A stretch of 9,933 bases of DNA from Gemmatimonadaceae bacterium. GTDB taxonomy: Bacteria > Gemmatimonadota > Gemmatimonadetes > Gemmatimonadales > Gemmatimonadaceae. Each line of letters starts with the position of its first letter. The stretch's first letter is position 1. Shown here one piece after another: positions 2 through 9,933 of the stretch. The notes under the pieces were generated by a model. It saw nothing but the letters and a program-made list of their open reading frames with translations. It made no database searches and was not told where the DNA came from. The translations under genes and the position numbers were made by a program. The stretch covers positions 1 through 9,933 of the forward strand of contig JANWKK010000136.1 of the NCBI GenBank assembly GCA_025451425.1. Reading direction: 5' to 3'.

Positions 2-616
2 GTGGTTCTTACTTTGCGCAACCTTGATATTCCCGTGACGTTCATTCGGGGCAAAGGCGAGCGCGAGGTGCTCGCGCTGCGAGCGGGTGGCGTCGCCGGT
101 CGCTTCCCGGAGAGCATGCGGGAGTCGATGCAATGGAACGCCGACCAGCTCGACGACGAGTCGGCGCTGGTCATGGCCGGTTGGCCGGCCATGACCAGCG
201 TTCATGTCAACACGTTAGGCGCAGTGCTCTTTTGTCATGCGACGCCTCGCAACGACACCGAGATCTTCCTGCGGACGACCCCCGAGGAGGCGCTCATTCC
301 TGCGTTCGCATCGGCTGACGCCGACGTCGTCGTCTGCGGTCACACGCACATGCAGTTCGACCGAATGATCGGATCGACGCGTGTCGTGAATGCTGGAAGC
401 GTCGGGATGTCGTTCCAGGGACCCGGTGCATACTGGCTGCTGCTCATCGACTCGGAGATCGAGCTTCGCCGGACGGACTACGATCTCAAACAAGCCGCGG
501 ATCGGATCCGCGCAACCAGCTATCCACAGGCTGCCGAGTTCGCGGAGCGAAACGTTCTGCGCCCGCCGTCCGAGGCGGAGACGATTGCCTCCTTTTCACA
601 GTACGCGCTGCGCTGA
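2..616 (+). CDS. metallophosphoesterase family protein, 5' end missing
   Basis: Predicted calcineurin-like phosphodiesterase or phosphatase of the small YfcE/Metallophos_2 type, probably cytosolic, with an unknown substrate. Visible family features are FCHAT around residue 79, the metal-binding GHTH at 113-116, and the VNAGSVGM stretch at 129-136 that follows it in this family. The N-terminal DxH and GD metal motifs are absent, so the gene must begin left of the window; the GTG at base 2 is only the first in-frame codon. Odd point: the motif normally read as GN(G/H/C)(D/E) appears here as R-G-K-G-E (residues 16-20), so the metal-ligand Asn is Lys (codon AAA at 53-55). A 16-bp perfect hairpin sits in the coding sequence at 165-200. 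It is probably the first visible gene of an operon, since the next gene starts 21 bases after its stop. The family is clear; whether the enzyme is active is not. Confidence 0.88.
   Translation: MVLTLRNLDIPVTFIRGKGEREVLALRAGGVAGRFPESMRESMQWNADQLDDESALVMAGWPAMTSVHVNTLGAVLFCHATPRNDTEIFLRTTPEEALIPAFASADADVVVCGHTHMQFDRMIGSTRVVNAGSVGMSFQGPGAYWLLLIDSEIELRRTDYDLKQAADRIRATSYPQAAEFAERNVLRPPSEAETIASFSQYALR
165..200. repeat. perfect 16-bp inverted repeat, TTGG loop, inside the phosphoesterase gene
   Basis: The left arm CGCTGGTCATGGCCGG (165-180) and the right arm CCGGCCATGACCAGCG (185-200) are exact reverse complements around a TTGG loop (181-184); two further G-T wobble pairs can form at the base. The reading frame runs straight through and encodes ALVMAG/WPAMTS. 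A perfect 16-bp stem with a 4-base loop is very unlikely by chance in 10 kb. It could be a quasi-palindrome corrected by template switching, a palindromic element, or an mRNA structure. No T-run follows, so an ordinary terminator is unlikely. Confidence 0.9.
213..220 (-). repeat. first of seven copies of the octamer GCCTAACG
   Basis: Here the octamer is on the minus strand (CGTTAGGC on plus). The other exact copies, all on the plus strand, are at 2941-2948, 3237-3244, 4101-4108, 5490-5497, 9397-9404 and 9779-9786. Near copies are CCTAACG at 1479-1485 and CGTTAGG at 2025-2031. About 0.3 copies would be expected on both strands in a random sequence of this length. Four copies (213, 3237, 4101, 5490) read CG-TTA-GGC in the same coding phase, giving Leu-Gly through a TTA codon in a GC-rich gene. 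That suggests a constraint on the DNA and not on the protein. Confidence 0.8.
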
Positions 617-637
617 CCCACCGACAACGACTGACTC

Positions 638-922
638 ATGGCGAGTGGTGTAGCATTCTCGTATCGGAGCGCCCGATCGCCGGCGATCACGTCCGCGATC
701 GATCTCCCGACGCCCGGAACGAACGAAGGACGCGATTACGTTCACCTCACGAAGCCGGGCGCGCCGAACGTGTTGATCGTGCTCGATGCGCCAAGACGCG
801 TGCGGCTCACAGCGGGCCTCCATCGTGAGGTGCGTCGCATCGCACCGCGGCTCGACGACCCTGACGCCTTTCTGCGCGCGGTCGAAGAGCATCGTGCTGC
901 CCTCGCAGCACGCTCGGCATGA
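638..922 (+). CDS. hypothetical protein, 94 residues
   Basis: I do not recognise this family. The protein has no signal peptide, membrane segment or Cys cluster. Its middle (about residues 33-65) could form beta strands (YVHLTKPG, NVLIVLDAP), and the C-terminal 35 residues look helical and rich in Arg, Ala and Glu. Third codon positions are mostly G or C, as in the neighbouring genes, which supports real coding; the opposite-strand frame across it looks like a shadow. It starts 21 bases after the phosphoesterase stop and its TGA (920-922) directly abuts the ATG of the next gene, so the three are probably co-transcribed and the last two translationally coupled. No clear Shine-Dalgarno precedes the ATG, so the exact start is uncertain. 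Confidence 0.68.
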   Translation: MASGVAFSYRSARSPAITSAIDLPTPGTNEGRDYVHLTKPGAPNVLIVLDAPRRVRLTAGLHREVRRIAPRLDDPDAFLRAVEEHRAALAARSA

Positions 923-1459
923 ATGGACTCACGTGACGCGGCGCGGCTGATCGCGCCCGCCGTGCAGATCGGCGAGCAGTGGGCAGATCTTGGCGCGGGA
1001 ACGGGAACGTTCACCGTCGCGCTGGCGCGCCTCGTCGGTCCGACGGGCGGTGTGTACGCCGTGGAGCGAGAGCAGTCCGCTGTAGATCAACTCAGCGACG
1101 CCGCACGCGCGCGTGATCCGGAGCGCGCACACATCGTCGTGTTGCACTCGGATTTCACCGGCCCGCTCGAGCTACCTCCGCTCGACGGCGCGCTTCTCGC
1201 CAATGCGCTGCATTTCGTCGACGGTGGCGAGCAGGCGCGCATGTTGCGACGCATCGCCGACCGGCTCGTACGCACCGGTGCTCTCGTTATTGTCGAGTAC
1301 GACAATCGGCCGCCGAGCCGTTGGGTGCCGTTCCCGGTCTCGTTGGCGCGACTGGCGGATCTGGCGCGGCTCGCGCAGCTCGGCGCGCCGGAACAAATTG
1401 GCCGGCGACGATCCGTGTTCGGTGGAAGCATGTACGCGGCACGCGTGTCGCTGCGTTAG
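923..1459 (+). CDS. class I SAM-dependent methyltransferase
   Basis: Transfers a methyl group from S-adenosylmethionine to an unknown acceptor, probably in the cytosol. The Rossmann-type core is visible: the SAM-binding glycine loop ADLGAGTGTF at residues 21-30, the acidic end of strand 2 in VYAVERE (44-50), an Asp at 77 after strand 3, and the LLANALHFVD segment (91-100) typical of the UbiE/ArsM-like Methyltransf_11/25/31 group. Strand 5 is ALVIVEYD (120-127). At 178 residues it is short but complete for a stand-alone domain. The ATG follows the TGA of the upstream gene with no gap, and no Shine-Dalgarno is evident, so translational coupling is likely. The substrate cannot be told from sequence. 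Confidence 0.85.
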   Translation: MDSRDAARLIAPAVQIGEQWADLGAGTGTFTVALARLVGPTGGVYAVEREQSAVDQLSDAARARDPERAHIVVLHSDFTGPLELPPLDGALLANALHFVDGGEQARMLRRIADRLVRTGALVIVEYDNRPPSRWVPFPVSLARLADLARLAQLGAPEQIGRRRSVFGGSMYAARVSLR

Positions 1460-1485
1460 TTTGGAGTGTCGCCACGAACCTAACG

Positions 1486-1983
1486 ATGCGCCTCACCTTC
1501 ACGCTCGCCAGTCCCCGGGACGCGCCCGTGCTCGCCGCGTTGCGCGGTGCGTCGGCTCGCGAGTTGACGAAGCGGTTTGGCGAGGGGCATTGGTCGAGAG
1601 AGCCATCGGAGCGTGGCGTCGTGGCGGATCTCCGGAACGCGCACGTCTGGATCGCACGACGTGGCTCCGCGGTTATTGCTACGTTCCGCCTTGCGACGAA
1701 AAAGCCCTGGGCGATCGACAGGTCATACTTCAGCGAGTGCAAGCGACCGATCTATCTCACCAACATGGCGGTGCGTCCTGATTATCAGCGTCGAGGCATC
1801 GGGCGATTGTGCCTCGAGCACGCAGTGAAACGCGTGCGTGAGTGGCCGGCGGACTCGATCCGGCTCGACTCATATCAGGGAGACGCTGGCGCGGGCGAAT
1901 TCTACGCGAAGTGTGGGTTTCGTGAGGTTGGGCGGGTCGTGTATCGACTCACGCCACTGATCTATTACGAGATGCTGATATGA
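1486..1983 (+). CDS. GNAT family N-acetyltransferase
   Basis: Uses acetyl-CoA to acetylate an amine on an unknown small molecule or protein. GNAT motif A is plain: LTNMAVRPDYQRRGIGRLCL (residues 91-110), with the Q/R-x-x-G-x-G/A pyrophosphate-binding turn at 101-106. Motif B follows as EFYAKCGFREVGR (138-150), with the usual Tyr and the CGF turn. The frame is open further upstream to 1321, but I place the start at ATG 1486 because this gives a normal 165-residue GNAT domain and avoids overlap with the methyltransferase, which stops 26 bases earlier. A CCTAACG motif (1479-1485) directly abuts the ATG where a ribosome binding site might be expected. It is the last gene of the left-hand operon. 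Confidence 0.88.
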   Translation: MRLTFTLASPRDAPVLAALRGASARELTKRFGEGHWSREPSERGVVADLRNAHVWIARRGSAVIATFRLATKKPWAIDRSYFSECKRPIYLTNMAVRPDYQRRGIGRLCLEHAVKRVREWPADSIRLDSYQGDAGAGEFYAKCGFREVGRVVYRLTPLIYYEMLI

Positions 1984-2189
1984 GGCCAATCGGGTCGACA
2001 TCATCGAGTCACCGCCGCAACTTTCGTTAGGAGTTGCTCATTCGATGCCAGCGTCTCATAGTGCCGGTTGCTGTCGGAACCTCGGAAATAGCCCTAAAGT
2101 CCAACTTTGCTTTCGGGCCGGGGCCCGCCAGCATTCTCCGCTCCGATTGCGACGAGTTCCGTGGCAGGAACACCGGCATCTCCCCGAAT
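1984..2189 (+). other. leader or intergenic region before the GspE/PilB-like gene
   Basis: This 206-base stretch is free of stops in the frame of the following gene back to a TTG at 2034, but its translation resembles nothing in the ATPase family and I treat it as untranslated. It holds CGTTAGG (2025-2031), an AGGAG (2029-2033) that touches the TTG with no spacing but lies 11 bases before an out-of-frame ATG (2045), and a GC-rich inverted repeat CGGGCC-GG-GGCCCG (2114-2127). GTCCAACTTTGC (2099-2110) resembles GTCCAATTTTGC in the glucanase leader (4009-4020). I see no confident promoter. Confidence 0.4.
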
Positions 2190-3056
2190 ATGAGCAACAA
2201 CTCAATCCAACTCGGCGATCTTCGCGCTCTCGGCGTGAGTCGCCGGCCGCAAGCGGCGGAGCTCTCCGCCCCATCACAACAGCAAAATCGTAGCGTTTTC
2301 CTTCGTTCGCTGGGCGTCGAGCCGGGACGGCTGGGACTCGATCACCTCGGTATGAGCGACAGTACTCGAACCCTTCTGATGGATGCGCTGGCTCGTCCTC
2401 AGGGAGTCGTGCTCGCCGTCGGCCCGCCCTGTTCGGGGCGAACGACGACCATCTATGCGGCAGTCGAACACATGCGACACTGCCGCGAGATCATGCCCAC
2501 TCCCGAACAGCTTGCCGGAGAGCTTTTCGTTCCTGAGATTCGCGACACCGGGACGGCCGAGTTGGCGATGAGAGGTGCTCTCGCCGGATGCCTCGTCGTT
2601 TCGACGATGCGCGCATATGACGGGGCGAGAGCGATCCTTCGCCTGATCTCGTTGGGCGTGCCGCCCGGCTTTTTGGCGGCAAAGGTGCAGGCCATCGTCG
2701 GGCAGCGTCTGGTTCGCATGGTCTGTGCGTCCTGTCGCGAAGAAACCGCCGTCAGAAATGCGTCGCTCGACTCGTCGTTGCCGTTGAGCGAATGGAGGGG
2801 AAGGGGCGGCGATTGCGAGCGGTGCGGCGGCAGCGGTTATCGAGGCTGGACGGGCATCTTCGAGGTCGTGGCCATGGATGACTCGCTCCGGAAGGAACTG
2901 GCGCACTATGTGGTTGGAATTACGCGGCAACTATCGCTCAGCCTAACGCGAGCCAGCTTGTATCAGGATGGCCTGCGTCTGGTGCGCGCCGGGGTGACGA
3001 CGGTCGACGAAGTCCTTCGCGTCACCGCTCTCGATCGTCGCGACGTCGCGAATTAG
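2190..3056 (+). CDS. degenerate GspE/PilB-like secretion ATPase domain protein
   Basis: A relative of the hexameric ATPases that power type II secretion and type IV pili, at 288 residues instead of about 500-570, with no N-terminal N1/N2 domains. Residues 49-95 match the family (LDHLGM lead-in, RPQGVVLAVG, TTTIYAA), but the Walker A is GPPCSGRTT (78-86) with Arg84 in place of the essential Lys. About 30 residues that normally hold the Asp box and most of Walker B are missing between TIYAA and VPEIRD (114-119), and the His-box STLHTND is STMRAYD (138-144). By contrast the zinc tetracysteine (Cys 179, 182, 209, 212) and the C-terminal QDGLRLVRAGVTTVDEVLRVT (259-279) are well kept. I choose ATG 2190; a TTG at 2034 would add 52 residues unlike the family. 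No pilus or secretion genes lie nearby. It is probably a non-hydrolysing paralogue, or a decaying gene. Confidence 0.8.
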   Translation: MSNNSIQLGDLRALGVSRRPQAAELSAPSQQQNRSVFLRSLGVEPGRLGLDHLGMSDSTRTLLMDALARPQGVVLAVGPPCSGRTTTIYAAVEHMRHCREIMPTPEQLAGELFVPEIRDTGTAELAMRGALAGCLVVSTMRAYDGARAILRLISLGVPPGFLAAKVQAIVGQRLVRMVCASCREETAVRNASLDSSLPLSEWRGRGGDCERCGGSGYRGWTGIFEVVAMDDSLRKELAHYVVGITRQLSLSLTRASLYQDGLRLVRAGVTTVDEVLRVTALDRRDVAN

Positions 3057-3083
3057 TTCGGGGTCGGGCTCGGTAACGAGAGA

Positions 3084-3941
3084 CTAGCGCTTGTACACGC
3101 GCACGTAATCCACGAGCATCGCTTGCGGGAACGTCGTCGACCCGTCGGGGTCGCCCGGCCACGCACCACCGACGGCGACGTTCAGCAAGATGAAGAATGG
3201 ATGATCGAACACCCACGTCGTACCCGATGGAATGCTGCCTAACGACGTGCTGAAGTACGGCTTGTCGTCGACGAGCCAGGTGATGCCGCTCTGGTCCCAC
3301 TCGACCGCGTACACGTGGAAGTCGTCGGCGAACGCACCGGTGGCGAGATTGTACGGTCCGCCGATGCCGCTCGCGCCCGAATAGCCGGGCCCGTGCATTG
3401 TCCCGTGCACAATGCTCGGCTCCTTGCCGATGTTCTCCATGATGTCGATCTCGCCGCTCTTCGGCCAACCGACGGTGTTGATGTTGTCGCCAAGCATCCA
3501 GAACGCGGGCCAGAGTCCCTGCCCGCGGGGAATCCGAATGCGCGCCTCGAAGCGACCATACGCCTGCGAGAAGAGACCCGCTGTCTTGATGCGCGCCGAC
3601 GTGTAGCGACAGCTCCCGTACCAGCAGCTGTCATTGGTGGTCGATGGTTCAGCAAGCGCCGTGATCACCAGATGCCCGTTGCCGTCGAGCGCGATGTTCT
3701 CGGTGCGCGTCGTGTAGAACTCGCGCTCCTGATTGCCCCAACCACTGCCGCCGTTGTCGGCGACCCATTTGCTGCGATCGAACGACGCACCCGCCGGCCC
3801 GTCGAACTCGTCGCTCCAGACGAGCGTCCAAGACTGCGTGGTGACAGGCGGCGTCGTCACGCCTGACGAGTTCGACGTCGCTGCCGATGCGCACGCGGCG
3901 ACGAACAGGAGTAGCATCGATCGGGCGTCTATCCGTCTCAT
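3084..3941 (-). CDS. GH16 family beta-glucanase (laminarinase-like) lipoprotein
   Basis: Predicted retaining endo-beta-1,3- or 1,3-1,4-glucanase, exported and lipid-anchored. The N-terminus MRRIDARSMLLLFVAAC is a lipoprotein signal with lipobox VAAC (Cys17), followed by a Ser/Thr-rich linker (about 18-36). The GH16 domain runs from about residue 38 (WTLVWSDEFDG) to the end (VDYVRVYKR). GLWPAFWML (142-150) and the catalytic GEIDIMEN (nucleophile Glu164, assisting Asp166, acid/base Glu169) are intact, as is the substrate-face segment LNVAVGGAWPG. At 285 residues it is full length for a single-domain enzyme; no carbohydrate-binding module is present. A GTG at 3962 is possible, but ATG 3941 gives the better signal peptide. 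It converges on the ATPase-like gene with a 27-base gap and lies 87 bases behind the histidine kinase, with its own likely promoter. The exact glucan cannot be told. Confidence 0.93.
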   Translation of the reverse strand: MRRIDARSMLLLFVAACASAATSNSSGVTTPPVTTQSWTLVWSDEFDGPAGASFDRSKWVADNGGSGWGNQEREFYTTRTENIALDGNGHLVITALAEPSTTNDSCWYGSCRYTSARIKTAGLFSQAYGRFEARIRIPRGQGLWPAFWMLGDNINTVGWPKSGEIDIMENIGKEPSIVHGTMHGPGYSGASGIGGPYNLATGAFADDFHVYAVEWDQSGITWLVDDKPYFSTSLGSIPSGTTWVFDHPFFILLNVAVGGAWPGDPDGSTTFPQAMLVDYVRVYKR

Positions 3942-3983
3942 GTTCCCGAAGGTTTGGTGCACTCGAATGCCGAGCGTGTGTTT

Positions 3984-4014
3984 ACATTAGCACCGACCTT
4001 ACCCTTCGGTCCAA
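3984..4014 (-). promoter_or_regulatory. possible promoter of the GH16 gene with a shared leader motif
   Basis: On the minus strand TTGGAC (4014-4009) could be a -35 and TGC-TAATGT (3992-3984) an extended -10, with a rather long 19-base spacer. Transcription would start near 3977, leaving a leader of about 35 bases before the ATG. The -10 lies in the 12-mer GGTCGGTGCTAA (3999-3988), which recurs in the response-regulator leader. The match is moderate and has no experimental support. Confidence 0.35.
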
Positions 4015-4028
4015 TTTTGCGGTGGCGA

Positions 4029-5960
4029 TCACCGGACGCGGGCGCGGACCGAGCTCGGTTCCGAAGGCAGGTTCGCACCGACGCCCGGCAGCGGCGGCTC
4101 GCCTAACGAAGATGCCTTGCGGCCGTTCAGGGTCGGAGCGGACACCGGGAGTGTCACGGTGAAGATCGCGCCTCCGCCAGCGACGTTCGTCGCGTGGACG
4201 CGTCCGTGATGGCGCTCCACGATCGATCGGACGATCGCAAGGCCCATCCCCAGGCCTTGTGTCTTCGTCGTGAAAAACGGCTCGAACAGGTGCGGTTGGG
4301 CGTCGGATGGAATGCCGAGTCCACTATCGCGAATCGCGATCTCCGCCACGCCCTTCCCGAGTGTTGCGCTGACGCTCACGGTGCGTTGGCGGCGCGACCC
4401 CGATGCCGCGTCCAGTGCGTTGAGAGTGAGATTGAGGACGACCTGTTGAAGCTGCACCGGATCCCCGATCACGGTGAGCTGAGATGGAGCAACAACCAGA
4501 TCCAGCACCGTGTGCCGCAGCGCCGCGTCGTGTTGGAGAAGGTGTACGGCCTGCCGGCAGATGTCATTTAGATCGACCATCGTCGTCGCCGGCGGCTCCT
4601 TGCGGAGCAGCAGCCGGATCTGATTGATGACCTCCGCCGCGCGATCACAGTCGCCGACGATGTTGCGGAAACTTTCCGCTGCCTCCTCGAGATCACGCGT
4701 GCCCGGCGTGAGAAGCATCGATCCCGCCTCGGCGTTCGCCCGAATGGCCGTAAGGGGCTGACGCAGCTCGTGCGATATCGAGGCGGCGAGCTCGGCGACC
4801 GCCGCCACTCGGCCCATGTGCGCAAGCTCGCGCCGCGTCTCGTCCGCGGCAGCGACTTCGTTCGCCATGTGATTGAAGCTTTCGGCGAGCCGTGCGATCT
4901 CGGCGATATCCGCCGCCGGCACGCGGACGTCGTAGCGGCCCCGCGCGATCGACTCCGCGGCATCAGCGACGGCGACGATCGGCTTGGCGACGCGTCGACC
5001 GATCAAGAGTGCGGCGCCCATCCCGGCCAGCATCAACAGGGTGCCGACAATCATCAGTCGCCGGAGCGCCGTGCGCGGCGCCGATAGGACGTCGTCTAGT
5101 CGCGACTGCATCAGAATCTGCAGCGGCGTTCCCGCGATAGGTGCGGTCGCGGTAAGAACTTCCTCATCAGCATGGCGGTCTGTGAGCTGCTCGTCGCCGC
5201 GACGAGGCGGGGTCACCGGAGCTCCGCCGATGGTTGCCCAAACCGTTCCGTCGGCATTGCGGAAATACGTCGTCACACCGTCGCCCGCGAGCGCGCCTGC
5301 GCTGCGATCGGCCTGCGTGTTGCTCGCGATCCGACGCTCGTGGGCAATGTAGCCGATGACCCCGTGGCGTCCTTTGACCGACACCACAAGCCAGAAGTAC
5401 ACGCGCCCATTCGACACATAGAGTGGGCTCAGCCCCATCGAGTCCGGAACGGCCACCGCCGCAACAGCCTGGCGCATGATGGCGCGTGCGCCTAACGCCA
5501 AGCTGCTCACCGGGGGCGCGGCGGTGACCGACTGGCCCGGGCCAACACTGGTGACGCGCTGCCCTTTCGCATCCCATAACTCCACGACCAACCCCGAGTC
5601 AGTTGGCATAACGAGACGGGAAAGTACCTGCCGTGCGCCTGCGAGACTCTTCTCCGTGTCGGGCGAGCGATTGCCCACGTTCTCGCGAGCGTTGCGATCG
5701 TCCAACGCCTCGATGAGCGCGCGACTCCTCGAGGCGGTGACGTACCGAATGCGGTTCTGCTTGAGCCCTCCGTCGGCTATGGCGGCGAGCTCGTGAGTCG
5801 ATCGTGCCAGTCGCTCCTTCGTTCCGGAAATCGCCGAGCGCGTCATCATGTCGTATGCTGCGACGAGCACCATAACGAGGCACAGCGCGATCACGGCTCC
5901 GGTGAGAAGCGTGAACTTCCCCGCGAGCGATGTCGGCTTCCGTGCTGCAGCGCTCGACAT
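4029..5960 (-). CDS. membrane-bound sensor histidine kinase, HAMP plus FixL/NtrB-like kinase core
   Basis: Inner-membrane sensor that autophosphorylates on His and passes the phosphate to a response regulator. In order: TM1 about 16-37; an extracytoplasmic region of about 260 residues, possibly Cache-like though not diagnosable by eye; TM2 about 302-321; a HAMP domain about 322-374; HisKA with SISHELRQPLTAIRANAEAG and His397; then a HATPase with N box (VVLNLTLNALDA, Asn514), G1 DSGLGIP (545-551), F box FEPFFTTK (559-566) and G2 GLGMGLAI (569-576). All catalytic motifs are intact. Length is 643 residues, with a Pro/Ser-rich tail after the last strand. ATG 5960 is chosen because it overlaps the upstream regulator stop as TGATG, a translational-coupling arrangement; a TTG two codons earlier is possible. 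The regulator encoded just before it is the obvious partner. The signal sensed is unknown. Confidence 0.93.
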   Translation of the reverse strand: MSSAAARKPTSLAGKFTLLTGAVIALCLVMVLVAAYDMMTRSAISGTKERLARSTHELAAIADGGLKQNRIRYVTASRSRALIEALDDRNARENVGNRSPDTEKSLAGARQVLSRLVMPTDSGLVVELWDAKGQRVTSVGPGQSVTAAPPVSSLALGARAIMRQAVAAVAVPDSMGLSPLYVSNGRVYFWLVVSVKGRHGVIGYIAHERRIASNTQADRSAGALAGDGVTTYFRNADGTVWATIGGAPVTPPRRGDEQLTDRHADEEVLTATAPIAGTPLQILMQSRLDDVLSAPRTALRRLMIVGTLLMLAGMGAALLIGRRVAKPIVAVADAAESIARGRYDVRVPAADIAEIARLAESFNHMANEVAAADETRRELAHMGRVAAVAELAASISHELRQPLTAIRANAEAGSMLLTPGTRDLEEAAESFRNIVGDCDRAAEVINQIRLLLRKEPPATTMVDLNDICRQAVHLLQHDAALRHTVLDLVVAPSQLTVIGDPVQLQQVVLNLTLNALDAASGSRRQRTVSVSATLGKGVAEIAIRDSGLGIPSDAQPHLFEPFFTTKTQGLGMGLAIVRSIVERHHGRVHATNVAGGGAIFTVTLPVSAPTLNGRKASSLGEPPLPGVGANLPSEPSSVRARVR

Positions 5961-6418
5961 CAGCAATCCCGGCCTGCAACGGCGGCCGTGGAGTACGCCG
6001 AGACATCAGCGTGCTCGTTGGAATTGTCCGACTGCTGGCTGGAGAAGTATGGGTCGATCAGCTCGAGGAGCGCCGCGGCCGTGAATGGCTTCCGCAGCCA
6101 GCCTCGCGCGCCACGGGCCCGTGCGCGCTGCAGAGTGGCCGGATCATCGTAAGCGCTGATGAAAATGGTCGGCGGAACGATGGCGTCCCGAGCCGCGAGA
6201 CGGTCGAACAACTCGAACCCCGTGGACGTTCCGAGCTGAACGTCGATCAGGAGACAACGTGGCGGTGACTGCACTTGCTCCAGGTACTCGTCCGCCGTTC
6301 CGAAGGTCTCGGCGCAGATGCCGAGGACGCGCAGCAAACGAACTAGCGATCGCCTGATCGACTCGTCATCGTCGACGATACCGACCCATTCTTCAGAGGC
6401 GATCGGCCTTAGAGGCAT
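5960..6418 (-). CDS. single-domain response regulator (FixJ-type receiver without output domain)
   Basis: A receiver domain of 152 residues. The acidic pocket is VDDDE (Asp16-18), the phospho-acceptor is Asp59 in CLLIDVQLG, the switch Ser is Ser88 in FISAYDD, and the conserved Lys is Lys110 in LRKPF, so phosphotransfer should work. The sequence is closest in style to FixJ/NodW receivers, which normally carry a LuxR-type helix-turn-helix. Here a Ser/Asn/Ala-rich tail of about 25 residues (127-152) follows, with no DNA-binding domain. The stop overlaps the kinase start (TGATG), so the two form an operon. The frame extends to a TTG at 6466, but the likely promoter motif at 6482-6496 would put that TTG almost on the transcript start, so ATG 6418 is preferred. 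No good Shine-Dalgarno is visible. The output must come from a partner elsewhere, or phosphate is relayed onward. Confidence 0.9.
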   Translation of the reverse strand: MPLRPIASEEWVGIVDDDESIRRSLVRLLRVLGICAETFGTADEYLEQVQSPPRCLLIDVQLGTSTGFELFDRLAARDAIVPPTIFISAYDDPATLQRARARGARGWLRKPFTAAALLELIDPYFSSQQSDNSNEHADVSAYSTAAVAGRDC

Positions 6419-6481
6419 CAGTTCGGTCCGGCAAGTCTGGTGTGTCGAAGACTCATGGTGGCACAAATTGACTGTTTTCTC

Positions 6482-6496
6482 ACCTTAGCACCGACC
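6482..6496 (-). promoter_or_regulatory. leader motif shared with the GH16 gene, possible extended -10 of the regulator/kinase operon
   Basis: On the minus strand GGTCGGTGCTAA (6496-6485) is followed by GGT, giving TGC-TAAGGT as a possible extended -10 (TAAGGT at 6487-6482). The same 12-mer, then TGT, lies before the GH16 gene. No convincing -35 is seen at 16-19 bases, so an operator is as likely as a promoter core. Confidence 0.35.
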
Positions 6497-6565
6497 CTCA
6501 CGAGCCACATTGGACTTTCGACCAACGAGTCTCGAGAACGGTCCCCTCCGCTTGGCGTCCCCCTC

Positions 6566-6579
6566 GGCTCGATCGAGCC
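6566..6579. repeat. 14-bp perfect palindrome in the divergent intergenic region
   Basis: GGCTCGATCGAGCC is its own reverse complement and lies between the divergent response regulator (start 6418) and acylase (start 6670), 26 bases before the proposed acylase -35. That is a fitting place for an operator. About 0.6 such palindromes are expected by chance in 10 kb, and another (GATCGCCGGCGATC, 675-688) lies in a coding region, so the evidence is positional only. Confidence 0.35.
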
Positions 6580-6604
6580 CATCACGCTCCCCGCGCCCCT
6601 TGGG

Positions 6605-6633
6605 ATGACAAACCGAGTGCGGCAGGATATGCT
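6605..6633 (+). promoter_or_regulatory. possible sigma-70-type promoter of the acylase gene
   Basis: ATGACA (6605-6610, five of six to TTGACA) and TATGCT (6628-6633, four of six to TATAAT) are 17 bases apart, about 36 bases before the ATG at 6670. Spacing and position are good and the sequence match is fair. No strong Shine-Dalgarno is seen before the ATG. Confidence 0.4.
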
Positions 6634-6669
6634 CGTTACCGTAGCCGTCATCCCCCGACTCCTCGAGCA

Positions 6670-8937
6670 ATGAAGATCATTTCTTTTGTCATCGCGGCCA
6701 CGCTTCTCTCGCCAGCGCCACTCCGGTCCCAGAATCCGGATCAGGCCCGCTGGGAGCACGAAGCGCAGAACGTCACGATCACGCGCGACGACTGGGGCAT
6801 TCCGCACATCCGAGGCAAGAGCGACGCGGACGCGGTGTTCGGCCTCGTCTACGCACAGGCGGAGGACGACTTCAACCGCGTCGAGACAAACTTCATCAAC
6901 GCGATGGGACGCCTCGCCGAGGCCGAAGGAGAGTCGGAGATCTACCGCGATCTGCGGATGAAGCTATTCATCAGCCCGGACACCCTGAAAGCGCAGTACG
7001 CCGCGAGCCCGGACTGGCTCAAGAAGCTGATGGACGCATGGGCAGACGGTTTGAACTTCTATCTCGCCAAGCATCCCAACGTGAAGCCGCGCGTCATTGC
7101 GCACTTCGAGCCGTGGATGGCGCTGAGCTTCAGCGAGGGGAGCATTGGCGGCGACATCGAGCGCGTGAATCTGAATCAGCTCGCGGCGTTCTACGGCAAC
7201 CAGCCGCGCGAGGACAGAGGATCGCGACTCTTGGACGCGAGTACCGTCGGGAGCGCGCGTACTGCGCGCGCGACTCCAAGTAAGTGGCGCCGCGAGCGCG
7301 AGCGAGCAGGCGCCATGCCTAGCGAGCCAGGCGGATCGAATGGCATTGCGATCGCTCCGTCGAATACGGTTGGGCATCACTCGCTGCTTCTGATCAATCC
7401 GCACACGTCGTTCTTCTTCCGCGCCGAAGTACAGATGCACAGCGATGAAGGACTCAACGCCTACGGCGCGGTGACGTGGGGGCAGTTTTTCGTCTATCAG
7501 GGATTCAACGACCGCATTGGTTGGATGCATACCTCGAGCGGTGTCGACGCCATCGACGAATATCTCGAGACGATCGTGAAAAAGGGTGATCAGCCGTTTT
7601 ACAAGTACGGCAACGAGGAGCGGCCGGTCACCGTGAGCACGATCACCGTTCCCTACAAGACGGCGACCGGAATGGCGACAAAGCCGTTCACCGTTTACCG
7701 CACGCATCACGGGCCAATCATTCGCGAGCAGAATGGCAAGTGGGTCGCGATTCGTCTGATGAACGAGCCGCTGAAGGCGCTCACCCAATCGTATTCGCGA
7801 ACGAAGGCGCGAGATTACAAGTCGTTCAAGCAGATCATGGATCTGCATACGAACTCGTCGAACAACACGATCTACGCCGATGCCGACGGCAACATCGCCT
7901 ACTTTCACGGGAATTTCATTCCTCGCCGCGATGCACGATTTGATTGGAATAAACCTGTCGACGGAAGCGACACCGCGACCGAGTGGCATGGCCTTCTCTC
8001 GGTCGACCAGACGCCGCATCTGCTGAATCCGGCGAGTGGCTGGCTTTATAACTCCAATAACTGGCCGTGGTCGGCCGCGGGGCCGTCGAGCCCCAAACGC
8101 ACAGACTATCCCGCATACGTCGAGACGGGCCGCGAAGAATCGGCCCGCGGATACCATGCGATTCGCGTGCTCTCGAATCGAAAGGACTTCACGATCGAGC
8201 GCCTCCGCGCCGCAGCGTACGACAGTTATCTCCCCGCATTCGAGAAGCTCATCCCGTCGTTGCTTGCGGCGTACGATCAACTACCGGCGACCGACCCACT
8301 CAAGCCGAAGCTCACCGATCAAATCGCGGCGTTGCGAACGTGGGATCTTCGTTGGGCGGTGAATTCCGTGCCGACGTCGCTCGCCGTGTTCTGGGCCGAA
8401 GAGCTCACGCGGCGCGTCGGCGCGGAGGCGCGCCGTGCCGGGATCTCGTCCGACGATTACATCGTCGACCGGGCGACAGCGGCGGATCGCGTTCATGCGC
8501 TCTCCGCCGCCTCGGACAAGCTCGCCGCTGATTTCGGCTCATGGAAGACGCCGTGGGGGAACATCAATCGCTTCCAGCGCCTACCGGGTGACATCGTTCA
8601 GCCATTCAACGATGCGGAGCCGAGCATTCCCGTTGGCTTCACCTCGTCGCGGTGGGGCTCGCTCGCGTCGTTCGGCGCGCGCCCGTATCCGGGAACGAAG
8701 AAGTGGTACGGCACGAGCGGCAACAGCTTCGTGGCGGTCATCGAATTTGGAGACAGCATTCGGGCGATCGCCGTGACCGCCGGTGGCGAGAGTGGCCATC
8801 CGGCGTCCAAGCATTTCAACGACGAGGCCGAGCGATACGCGACCGGTAATCTGCGGACAGTGTACTTCTACCCCTCGCAGCTAGCGGGACATACCGAGCG
8901 GACGTATTCTCCCGGCTCAGAAGCCGGGGAGCGTTGA
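6670..8937 (+). CDS. penicillin acylase family Ntn hydrolase, exported
   Basis: Predicted periplasmic amidase of the penicillin/AHL acylase (S45) family, made as one precursor and cut by itself into alpha and beta chains. The N-terminus (residues 1-20) is a Sec signal. The alpha part carries VTITRDDWGIPHIRG (35-49) and VYAQAEDDFNR (60-70), typical of the family. The beta chain should begin at Ser223 in PGG-SNGIAIAPSNT, the N-terminal nucleophile. LLLINPHTSFFFR (239-251), NSSNNTIYADADGNIAYFHGNF (395-416) and NNWPWS (463-468) are the usual beta-chain signatures; residues near 463-464 probably help form the oxyanion site. Length is 755 residues, normal for the family. Odd point: residues about 181-220, the linker removed during maturation, are Arg/Ala-rich and encoded by hairpin-prone DNA. 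The substrate (beta-lactam, N-acyl homoserine lactone, acyl peptide or other amide) cannot be told. Transcription is divergent from the two-component genes. Confidence 0.93.
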   Translation: MKIISFVIAATLLSPAPLRSQNPDQARWEHEAQNVTITRDDWGIPHIRGKSDADAVFGLVYAQAEDDFNRVETNFINAMGRLAEAEGESEIYRDLRMKLFISPDTLKAQYAASPDWLKKLMDAWADGLNFYLAKHPNVKPRVIAHFEPWMALSFSEGSIGGDIERVNLNQLAAFYGNQPREDRGSRLLDASTVGSARTARATPSKWRRERERAGAMPSEPGGSNGIAIAPSNTVGHHSLLLINPHTSFFFRAEVQMHSDEGLNAYGAVTWGQFFVYQGFNDRIGWMHTSSGVDAIDEYLETIVKKGDQPFYKYGNEERPVTVSTITVPYKTATGMATKPFTVYRTHHGPIIREQNGKWVAIRLMNEPLKALTQSYSRTKARDYKSFKQIMDLHTNSSNNTIYADADGNIAYFHGNFIPRRDARFDWNKPVDGSDTATEWHGLLSVDQTPHLLNPASGWLYNSNNWPWSAAGPSSPKRTDYPAYVETGREESARGYHAIRVLSNRKDFTIERLRAAAYDSYLPAFEKLIPSLLAAYDQLPATDPLKPKLTDQIAALRTWDLRWAVNSVPTSLAVFWAEELTRRVGAEARRAGISSDDYIVDRATAADRVHALSAASDKLAADFGSWKTPWGNINRFQRLPGDIVQPFNDAEPSIPVGFTSSRWGSLASFGARPYPGTKKWYGTSGNSFVAVIEFGDSIRAIAVTAGGESGHPASKHFNDEAERYATGNLRTVYFYPSQLAGHTERTYSPGSEAGER
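7213..7335 (+). repeat. hairpin-rich segment encoding the acylase maturation linker
   Basis: Just before the catalytic Ser codon (7336-7338) lies a stretch full of short repeats. A stem pairs GGAG-CGCGCG (7250-7259) with CGCGCG-A-CTCC (7267-7277, one bulged A). Two GGCGCC copies (7286-7291, 7309-7314) flank a GCGAGCG-rich run. AGCGAGCAGGCG (7301-7312) and AGCGAGCCAGGCG (7321-7333) form an imperfect direct repeat. It encodes an Arg/Ala/Ser-rich linker. An inserted palindromic element, or repeat drift in a tolerant site, would explain it. Confidence 0.5.
8909..8931 (+). terminator. stem-loop at the 3' end of the acylase gene
   Basis: CCCGGCT (8911-8917) pairs with AGCCGGG (8922-8928) around a CAGA loop; CT/AG pairs extend it past one bulged G. 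It overlaps the last codons of the acylase. No T-run follows, so it is a weak terminator candidate. It may instead slow or attenuate read-through into the membrane-protein gene, or protect the mRNA end. Confidence 0.3.
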
Positions 8938-8947
8938 GCGTCCACTC

Positions 8948-8952
8948 AGGAG
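8948..8952 (+). promoter_or_regulatory. Shine-Dalgarno of the membrane-protein gene
   Basis: AGGAG lies 6 bases before ATG 8959. It is the clearest ribosome binding site in the window and fixes that start. Confidence 0.75.
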
Positions 8953-8958
8953 ATTCGC

Positions 8959-9402
8959 ATGCCCATCGACGCGGGAACGCAGAGTCAACCGACACGGCTT
9001 CGCGTGGTCCTCGCGATCGCCACGGGATTTCTGGCTGAGGCGTTCACCGCCGCGGTCGTGGGTGCCGTGATCGGCGTCCATCACCTGATGGCGCGAGGGC
9101 AGTCGCCCGAAGCGCAGCGCGACTTCAACTTTCGCGCGGCATACATCACCGGCCCGCTGTTCGGCATAATCTTCACGTACGTTATGGCGAGTTGGGTGGT
9201 GCGCCGAGCAAAAGGGCGCTACATGGCGCACGCGATGCTCGTCGCGGTGGGAGCGGTCGTGGCGCACATACTCACCGCGATGGGCGCGCCCGGCGGATAC
9301 GGTTTGATTCCCGCCGTCGCCGATGTGCTGAAGCTCGTTGCCGGCGCAACCGCTGCGTTCGTGGCTGAACGCCAGCGAGCGAGCCACGCTGTCGCTGCCT
9401 AA
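8959..9402 (+). CDS. small integral membrane protein, function unknown
   Basis: I do not recognise the family. The 147-residue protein has four likely membrane helices, at about residues 15-42 (Ala/Val/Gly-rich), 60-81, 89-108 and 114-136, with polar ends. RRAKGRY (82-88) after helix 2 suggests a cytosolic loop by the positive-inside rule. No metal-binding motif, transporter signature or catalytic residue stands out. The start is fixed by AGGAG six bases before the ATG. It begins 21 bases after the acylase stop, so the two may be co-transcribed despite the stem-loop between them. Its stop TAA lies inside a GCCTAACG octamer (9397-9404) and within the probable N-terminal region of the next gene's frame. 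Confidence 0.8.
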   Translation: MPIDAGTQSQPTRLRVVLAIATGFLAEAFTAAVVGAVIGVHHLMARGQSPEAQRDFNFRAAYITGPLFGIIFTYVMASWVVRRAKGRYMAHAMLVAVGAVVAHILTAMGAPGGYGLIPAVADVLKLVAGATAAFVAERQRASHAVAA

Positions 9403-9933
9403 CGCATACTCTCAGCGCTGGTTCTCGACGGTTCTCGGCCGCATCGTCGCTGGGATCGTCGAGCGCGAGGTGTCGTTCCTGCGCCGGCAGTTACCAGCGC
9501 CACCGGCGCGACTGCTCGACCTCTGCTGCGGGCCGGGCCGGCATGCGGCACCATTGAGCGAGGCGGGGTATCGCATCGTCGGTCTGGACCTCGACGCGGC
9601 CGCGCTCGCTCGCGCATTACAAGGGGCGCCAGGCGCAACGTTCGTTCGGGCCGACATGCGGCTTATGCCACTGGCCGCCGGCAGCGTCGAGGCAGCGATC
9701 TGCATGTGGCAGAGCTTCGGTCACTTCGATGCCACGGGGAACGAGACGGTGCTCTCCGAGCTGGCGCGCGTGCTCGTGCCTAACGGCGTGCTCGTGATGG
9801 ATCTCTATCATCGCGACGCGATCCGTGAGGGTGAGCGAATCATCGAGCGGGACGGCGAGCGTGTGCACGAGTCGCGGCGGATGCGTGGTGACGGCTTACT
9901 CGTGCAGCTACGCTACGATTCGAGCGGCGACGA
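9395..9933 (+). CDS. class I SAM-dependent methyltransferase, 3' end missing
   Basis: The frame is open from the end of the membrane-protein gene to the window edge (179 residues here). The SAM-binding motif is LLDLCCGPGRH (residues 40-50 counted from 9395). It is followed by IVGLDLD ending in the acidic residue of strand 2, a RADMRLMPL segment after strand 3, AAICMWQSFGHF for strand 4 and VLVMDLYH for strand 5, all as in Methyltransf_11/25 enzymes. The start is a problem. AYSQRWFSTVL...EREVSFLRRQLP before motif I looks like genuine protein, yet it has no in-frame ATG, GTG or TTG close to its beginning. Options are a CTG at 9395 (giving MPNAYSQRWF and an 8-base overlap with the upstream gene), a TTG at 9338 (65-base overlap) or a GTG at 9470 that would drop this segment. 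The product is certainly a methyltransferase; its substrate is unknown. Confidence 0.82.
   Translation, partial: MPNAYSQRWFSTVLGRIVAGIVEREVSFLRRQLPAPPARLLDLCCGPGRHAAPLSEAGYRIVGLDLDAAALARALQGAPGATFVRADMRLMPLAAGSVEAAICMWQSFGHFDATGNETVLSELARVLVPNGVLVMDLYHRDAIREGERIIERDGERVHESRRMRGDGLLVQLRYDSSGD

Follow-up and report, generated by a model that had tools for sequence, protein, structure and literature searches.

A nearly all-or-none, genome-wide octamer in a subset of Gemmatimonadota and its possible role as a self tag

We analysed a stretch of 9,933 nucleotides from a Gemmatimonadaceae bacterium (contig JANWKK010000136.1), here called the window, in which one octamer, GCCTAACG, is repeated far more often than expected. 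The window holds seven copies of this word, whereas dinucleotide shuffles gave a mean of 0.18 and a maximum of 2, and none of 200 shuffles reached seven. Under an order-2 Markov model it ranks first among window 8-mers with at least four copies (7 observed, 0.16 expected). The seven octamers and two seven-base copies lie as follows:

213..220, minus strand: octamer in the phosphoesterase gene, read ACG TTA GGC (T-L-G)
1479..1485, plus strand: seven-base copy CCTAACG, adjoining the ATG (1486) of the GNAT gene
2025..2031, minus strand: seven-base copy; the plus strand reads CGTTAGG, then AG, then the TTG at 2034 at which the listed open reading frame (ORF) of a T2SSE-like gene starts
2941..2948, plus strand: octamer in the T2SSE-like gene, read AGC CTA ACG (S-L-T)
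3237..3244, plus strand: octamer opposite to the GH16 gene, read there TCG TTA GGC (S-L-G)
4101..4108, plus strand: octamer opposite to the histidine kinase gene, read there TCG TTA GGC (S-L-G)
5490..5497, plus strand: octamer opposite to the histidine kinase gene, read there GCG TTA GGC (A-L-G)
9397..9404, plus strand: octamer that includes the TAA stop of ORF 8959-9402 (GCC TAA CG)
9778..9785, plus strand: octamer in the methyltransferase gene, read GTG CCT AAC GGC (V-P-N-G)

A preliminary description of this DNA had listed seven exact copies; all are present, but the last begins at 9778 and not at 9779. The excess over expectation held under both models, and both seven-base copies are where that description placed them. 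Four copies do force xCG-TTA-GGC, in the phosphoesterase and GH16 genes and twice in histidine kinase genes, and copies do sit at gene boundaries, one holding the stop of ORF 8959-9402 and one seven-base copy abutting the GNAT start. The octamer had also been called strand-biased; this part did not hold, as six of seven copies on one strand is no more than chance (p = 0.125), nor is seven of nine when the seven-base copies are added (p = 0.18).

At window positions 2025-2036 the seven-base copy merges into an AGGAG that abuts the TTG at 2034. This is too near for a ribosome site, so the true start of the T2SSE-like gene may be further on. In its best stretch, this ATPase gene (2034-3056) covers no more of the Pfam profile than the C-terminal part (216-370 of 370), and the gene may be a shortened PilB/GspE relative.

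Judged by its relatives, the window is Gemmatimonadota DNA; the best relative of its acylase lies in a Gemmatimonas sp. metagenome-assembled genome (MAG; 78% to locus L001). Among the best 80 of 596 related loci, four (L001, L011, L026 and L035) have GCCTAACG as their top 8-mer and L002 carries it three times; the remaining 75 have at most three, with L009 the one that reaches three. Counts in the whole genomes behind these first five loci gave 2,940, 2,065, 3,749, 2,895 and 2,745 copies, against 219 to 271 for a reversed control pattern. In a sample of 246 genomes of the class, 14 exceed 200 copies, two have 172 and 181, and the others have at most 69. Within the family, loaded genomes (223 to 4,469 copies) number 26 of 179, and the other 153 have 70 or fewer; five loaded genomes of the class sample (G101, G185, G214, G234 and G243) are absent from the family list. 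The state of the word is nearly all-or-none among relatives.

The excess amounts to about 50 times the order-2 Markov expectation. We found 436 exact copies against 8.6 expected in the chromosome sample of genome G153, 319 against 5.9 in its plasmids, 141 against 3.2 in G236 and 114 against 2.4 in G001. The majority of single-mismatch forms are not enriched. The clearest exceptions in the G153 chromosome are A at position 8 (57 against 1.6) and C at position 4 (111 against 35); A is enriched at position 1 in G236 (36 against 2.0) and also in G001, and at position 3 in G001 (16 against 2.0). CCTAAC is taken as the core. Relative to composition, loaded genomes hold 8.6 to 21.5 times the expected exact copies and 0.94 to 1.01 times the expected one-mismatch forms, and in three octamer-poor genomes these values are 0 to 0.24 and 0.57 to 0.68. 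Copies are spaced nearly at random (coefficient of variation 0.90 to 1.01). In the flanks, C or T is mildly preferred at position -1 and, in G001, A after the word; codon bias may explain these preferences, and we rejected a longer conserved flank.

The word leaves a clear footprint on genes, whose positions we took from a simple in-house gene caller. Coding sequence makes up 88 to 93% of the DNA analysed and contains 69 to 90% of the copies; copies outside genes or spanning a gene edge are over-represented in G236 and in both the chromosome and the plasmids of G153, but not in G001. Rare codons and stops are captured by the word. It contains 211 of 287 TTA codons in the G153 chromosome, 120 of 154 in the plasmids, 86 of 186 in G236 and 40 of 78 in G001; in the same order, it contains 20 of 53, 23 of 37, 3 of 49 and 0 of 20 TAA stops, and 28 of 123, 24 of 76, 15 of 116 and 4 of 44 TAG stops. 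A stop codon is present in one frame of each strand of the word. Inside genes, the CGTTAGGC orientation prevails over GCCTAACG in four of five sets (234/123, 126/95, 86/26 and 39/19; 48/55 in G001). When G153 genes are divided into quartiles by GC content at third codon positions, density is lowest in the lowest quartile (0.40 against 0.57, 0.58 and 0.49 per kb). In loaded genomes, the usage of TTA, TAA and TAG is not simply readable as translational selection. The suggestion that the octamer is a genome-wide signal word of this lineage is thus strongly supported, by thousands of copies per genome, the excess over the Markov model, the nearly all-or-none distribution and the cost in codons.

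Genome G153 carries 4,469 copies, the most among the 179 family genomes. Its four contigs (5,311,527, 1,106,233, 1,040,503 and 20,952 bases) agree with the published replicons of Gemmatirosa kalamazoonensis KBS708T (5,312, 1,106, 1,041 and 21 kb; PMC3974934), and from this agreement we infer that G153 is KBS708T. GCCTAACG is found on all four replicons. The chromosome sample has 436 copies in 820 kb (0.53 per kb), the samples of the two large plasmids, 220 kb each, have 158 and 144 (0.72 and 0.65 per kb), and the small element has 17 in 20 kb (0.85 per kb). This small element (21 kb; L081, G153 C1) is phage-like: of the six of its proteins that were scanned, two have PHROGs matches, an integrase and a primase. 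Its octamer places recur with a period of 14,997 bases, so that 12 of the 17 copies are distinct, and its unit may be about 15 kb. When we sought viral relatives of this element, to see whether free phages carry the word, we found one weak 45% match and otherwise none.

The word has no strand polarity that we could detect, and we rejected this property. Strands are mixed at the five related loci (6/4, 4/7, 3/2, 4/3 and 2/1 for the set of L001, L011, L026, L035 and L002). Whole-genome forward and reverse totals are near equal in the five genomes behind these loci, and a few drafts are uneven (G101 388/318, G173 453/381). Two balanced replication arms would also give equal totals, so the verdict on polarity rests on a two-arc split, for which two long contigs were sampled with the replication origin unmapped. 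The best split of the G153 chromosome places 56.9% of copies in the favoured orientation against a random mean of 56.5% (p = 0.40), and that of G236 places 61.7% against 60.5% (p = 0.36). Orientation is not significantly associated with local GC skew in the G153 chromosome (rho -0.09, p = 0.59) or plasmids (p = 0.81), and a weak trend is possible in G236 (-0.40, p = 0.07) and G001 (-0.47, p = 0.14). Strand ratios vary slightly beyond chance across G153 samples (p = 0.038), and this variation tracks gene direction (rho -0.56) rather than GC skew. Polarity, and with it a role like that of the FtsK-orienting polar sequences (KOPS), which the preliminary description had raised, is not supported.

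Individual sites turn over between genera. Aligned sites differ by substitutions and, in a few cases, by short gaps of 1 to 3 bases; insertions the size of an octamer or a cassette were not seen at them. Two octamer sites of the window and four of L001 can be aligned between these two sequences, and none of them recurs in the partner. Over all ordered pairs, distant ones included, 18 of 148 sites are kept against 63 of 882 flanks, and at 60 to 70% identity 4 of 95 are kept. In a tree of ComEC (28 rows, one gene), the loaded genomes form two groups. The main group encloses the unloaded G044 and G145, and with weak support also G226 and G021; the smaller group contains in addition the weakly loaded G089 and G199 and the unloaded G009. 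This mixture requires repeated loss or repeated gain. G044 is a single contig of 4,636,964 bases with 17 copies, which we take to be Gemmatimonas aurantiaca T-27.

We propose that GCCTAACG serves a subset of Gemmatimonadota as a self tag throughout the genome, acting in the manner of a DNA uptake sequence, and we consider this proposal as likely to be right as wrong. A putative receptor associated with the type IV pilus would bind the word on free DNA. Word-bearing DNA would then be drawn in by pilus retraction and passed through ComEC, and DprA and RecA would recombine it into the genome. Because tagged fragments would enter more often, the tag would build up through molecular drive at all places where the encoded protein can bear it, chiefly in the form xCG-TTA-GGC, as P-N codons and in stop codons. 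We speak of a likeness in action, with even confidence, and do not file the octamer as a member of the DNA uptake sequences.

Several properties of the word argue for this proposal. According to passages of PMC2346458, uptake sequences occur in hundreds to thousands of copies, show no general orientation bias and have one orientation that prevails inside genes. The six richest genomes first met carry 2,065 to 4,469 copies, which lies in that range; the G153 and G236 samples show no general orientation bias, and the preference inside genes has been described above. In a portion of PMC3630211, seven of eight dialects of the neisserial DNA uptake sequence (DUS) hold a stop in one frame, as the octamer does, and part of PMC1939737 reports that the excess of uptake sequences drops steeply with mismatches, a profile that the octamer resembles. 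The capture of TTA codons and of TAA and TAG stops in the G153 chromosome, and the low density in the G153 genes with the lowest GC content at third codon positions, also speak for the proposal. Conservation points the same way: in near relatives (aligned stretches of at least 75% identity, with each shared site counted once and local flanks for comparison), 7 of 17 sites have stayed identical, as have 29 of 164 windows in the flanks (p = 0.048). A looser count over six locus pairs had given 7 of 11 identical sites, or 7 of 9 when taken in the other direction, with 3905 of 19973 windows identical, and the stricter counting weakened this contrast. The genes of the transformation machinery that we searched for, in 30 genomes (mostly drafts, in which genes may be missed), are widespread: ComEC in 28, DprA in 27 and PilT over the cut-off in 29. 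In soil bacteria, including Gemmatimonadetes, ComEC with neighbouring recombination genes has been linked to stronger recombination (a section of PMC7305173), which makes the uptake idea plausible, though it is no test of it.

The octamer thus resembles the DUS of Neisseriaceae in its thousands of copies, its lack of polarity, its genic and intergenic places, the stop in a reading frame, the favoured orientation in genes, and the accompanying type IV pilus, ComEC and DprA genes. It differs in its unrelated sequence and phylum, in having no excess of close facing pairs and no dialects that we found, and in that its receptor and its function are putative. We know of uptake-sequence systems only from Neisseriaceae and Pasteurellaceae. 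With the uptake signal sequence of Pasteurellaceae, the octamer shares a short non-palindromic core, a similar order of copy number and the steep fall with mismatches; unlike that sequence, it has no extended flank consensus beyond the mild C/T at -1.

Other results weigh against this proposal. Close facing pairs occur in high numbers in DUS-bearing Neisseriaceae genomes (part of PMC3630211). In nine loaded genomes, we found 23 such pairs (spacer 0-24) where 87 were expected, as if close facing pairs were avoided, and a terminator role through facing pairs is likewise not supported. Octamer-poor genomes, G044, G145 and G226 among them, have ComEC, DprA and PilT just as loaded ones do, and genes common to both kinds of genome do not explain the difference between them. 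Inside genes, no significant trend towards the 5' or 3' end was found (p = 0.997, 0.91, 0.08 and 0.59), which is also a difference from the Pasteurellaceae sequence with its gene-terminus bias. The phage-like element is as octamer-rich as the chromosome and both large plasmids are richer, which an uptake model does not require. The conservation test in near relatives, for its part, is small and of borderline significance. Sampling of three octamer-poor Gemmatimonadota genomes revealed no alternative word of comparable strength across the genome, and hence no switch of dialect. Finally, none of the papers found on Gemmatimonads together with natural transformation and competence describes transformation of a Gemmatimonad, as judged by titles and the beginnings of abstracts. 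Uptake sequences had been one option of the preliminary description; this option survives in number, absence of polarity, orientation in genes, stop codon and mismatch profile, but fails on the inverted pairs of Neisseria, and it is not proven.

The literature searched, which covers part of what is published, contained neither GCCTAACG nor CGTTAGGC as whole words, and nothing in it joins Gemmatimonas with a DNA uptake sequence or a Gemmatimonad with an overrepresented octamer. The 7-mers were found there only in papers on cancer and on integron recombination sites.

We tentatively extend the proposal to a wider one, which we hold to be possible but doubtful: Gemmatimonadota may distinguish DNA of their own kind from foreign DNA, with the octamer marking 'own' DNA for a putative uptake receptor or for a nuclease that spares it. 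Within the class, the system would have appeared or disappeared as a whole on several occasions, the word staying the same, and the resident phage-like element would have adopted the word to pass as self. The uptake reading itself, if true, would give a soil phylum with few isolates a counterpart of the known systems. One could then study whether tags of this kind arise more than once in evolution, what drive does to codon usage and by what means abundant soil bacteria confine recombination to kin. As G153 matches a cultured type strain by its replicon sizes, the self-tag reading is directly testable.

Among the alternatives, we first considered that the octamer is the binding word of an abundant protein that organises or protects the chromosome, selected for density as an orientation-free counterpart of HIP1 (the highly iterated palindrome of cyanobacteria) or of nucleoid-protein sites. 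We judge this unlikely. The dense and roughly random spacing without polarity would fit such a protein, as would the similar load on the chromosome, both megaplasmids and the phage-like element and the failure of competence genes to separate loaded from unloaded genomes. However, the sequence is very strict, most single-mismatch forms not being enriched, and such strictness is unusual for packing proteins; the scarcity of the word in 153 of 179 family members would also be odd for a basic function. HIP1 itself resembles the octamer in its very high density across the genomes of one bacterial clade and in its unclear role, but it is palindromic and contains a methyltransferase site, whereas the octamer is non-palindromic and is not an N6-methyladenine (6mA) motif of KBS708.

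A recombination signal like Chi, which regulates a helicase-nuclease, was another option of the preliminary description and appears improbable to us. Like Chi of Escherichia coli and KOPS, the octamer is a non-palindromic, genome-wide word of eight bases; its thousands of copies and its presence on the phage-like element would also fit Chi. But neither the two-arc splits nor GC skew gave significant polarity, apart from the possible weak trends in G236 and G001, and RecC is mostly absent. It was found in five of the 30 genomes (G098, G163, G044, G145 and G247), three of which are octamer-poor, and not in G153 or G001-G005. PDDEXK_1 was over the cut-off in 14, mostly weakly. For AddAB, our search found nothing convincing in G153, where PF12705 weakly matches one 430-residue frame; other helicase-nucleases were not searched. 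Moreover, E. coli Chi is only 6.7 times more frequent than expected (1008 against 151, in the part of PMC1939737 that treats it), below the excess of the octamer. A Chi role is therefore not supported.

A functionless, site-specific bias of mutation or repair could also create the word, and would account for its accumulation at synonymous sites and on mobile DNA. Some words one change away do fall below the Markov expectation in the G153 chromosome (GCGTAACG 8 against 35, GCCTTACG 1 against 15, GCCTAGCG 1 against 30), although the word itself inflates these expectations. The commonest of these one-change words, however, are not depleted (GCCTGACG 109 against 99, GCCCAACG 111 against 35, GCCGAACG 245 against 294), and near relatives keep sites somewhat more often than flanks. 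We know of no process that recognises eight bases to create a word by mutation or repair, and we regard this explanation as quite improbable.

We give slightly less credence still to a methylation or restriction word, on which a methyltransferase or an evasion system would act. HIP1, whose excess is still higher than that of the octamer, contains a methyltransferase site (in the portion of PMC1939737 concerned), and a patchy distribution suits mobile systems. On the other hand, the PacBio methylome of KBS708 lists RGATCY, ATGCAC and CCAGN7TCA as the only 6mA motifs (PMC3974934, where cytosine methylation is not reported), and GCCTAACG is not among them; adenine methylation of the word is thus not supported for KBS708.

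Last, the copies could be core sites of integron attC elements scattered through the genome, an explanation that we consider very improbable and rejected as a general cause: the excess lies in ordinary coding genes aligned without octamer- or cassette-sized insertion, cassette boundaries were not found to account for it, and the integron integrase IntI does not track the word. The attC core consensus is RYYYAAC, and GCCTAAC, seven of the eight bases, fits it. Of the changes that this consensus allows, A at position 1 (G236, G001) and C at position 4 (G153) are enriched, but T at positions 2 and 3 is not clearly so, and the tolerance of substitutions is partly different. IntI was over the cut-off in 12 of the 30 genomes, including G153 and the octamer-poor G044, G145, G226 and G247, but not in the octamer-rich G001-G005 (drafts; G002 and G003 have partial matches). 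In several octamer-poor relatives, the few GCCTAACG copies form cassette-like same-strand arrays with a spacing of about 0.3 to 2 kb, for example in L100 (G220 C5). These arrays resemble the large cassette arrays of integrons.

Other repeats were noticed in the same material. The G153 chromosome carries tandem units of 11 bases (GGACTGAAGAA) and 8 bases (AGGGCAGG) in facing inverted arrays that could potentially form long hairpins (L136:16240-16332, L138:12300-12394 and L131:15053-15129). The seed octamers of these units have 71 and 138 copies in 41 samples of the G153 chromosome, of which 12 and 8 contexts were inspected. Comparable short tandem arrays lie at L009:20916-21349, in an Acidobacteria MAG with 7-base units (AGTCCTG/AGTGCTG), and at L027:4443-4571, in another Gemmatimonadota MAG.

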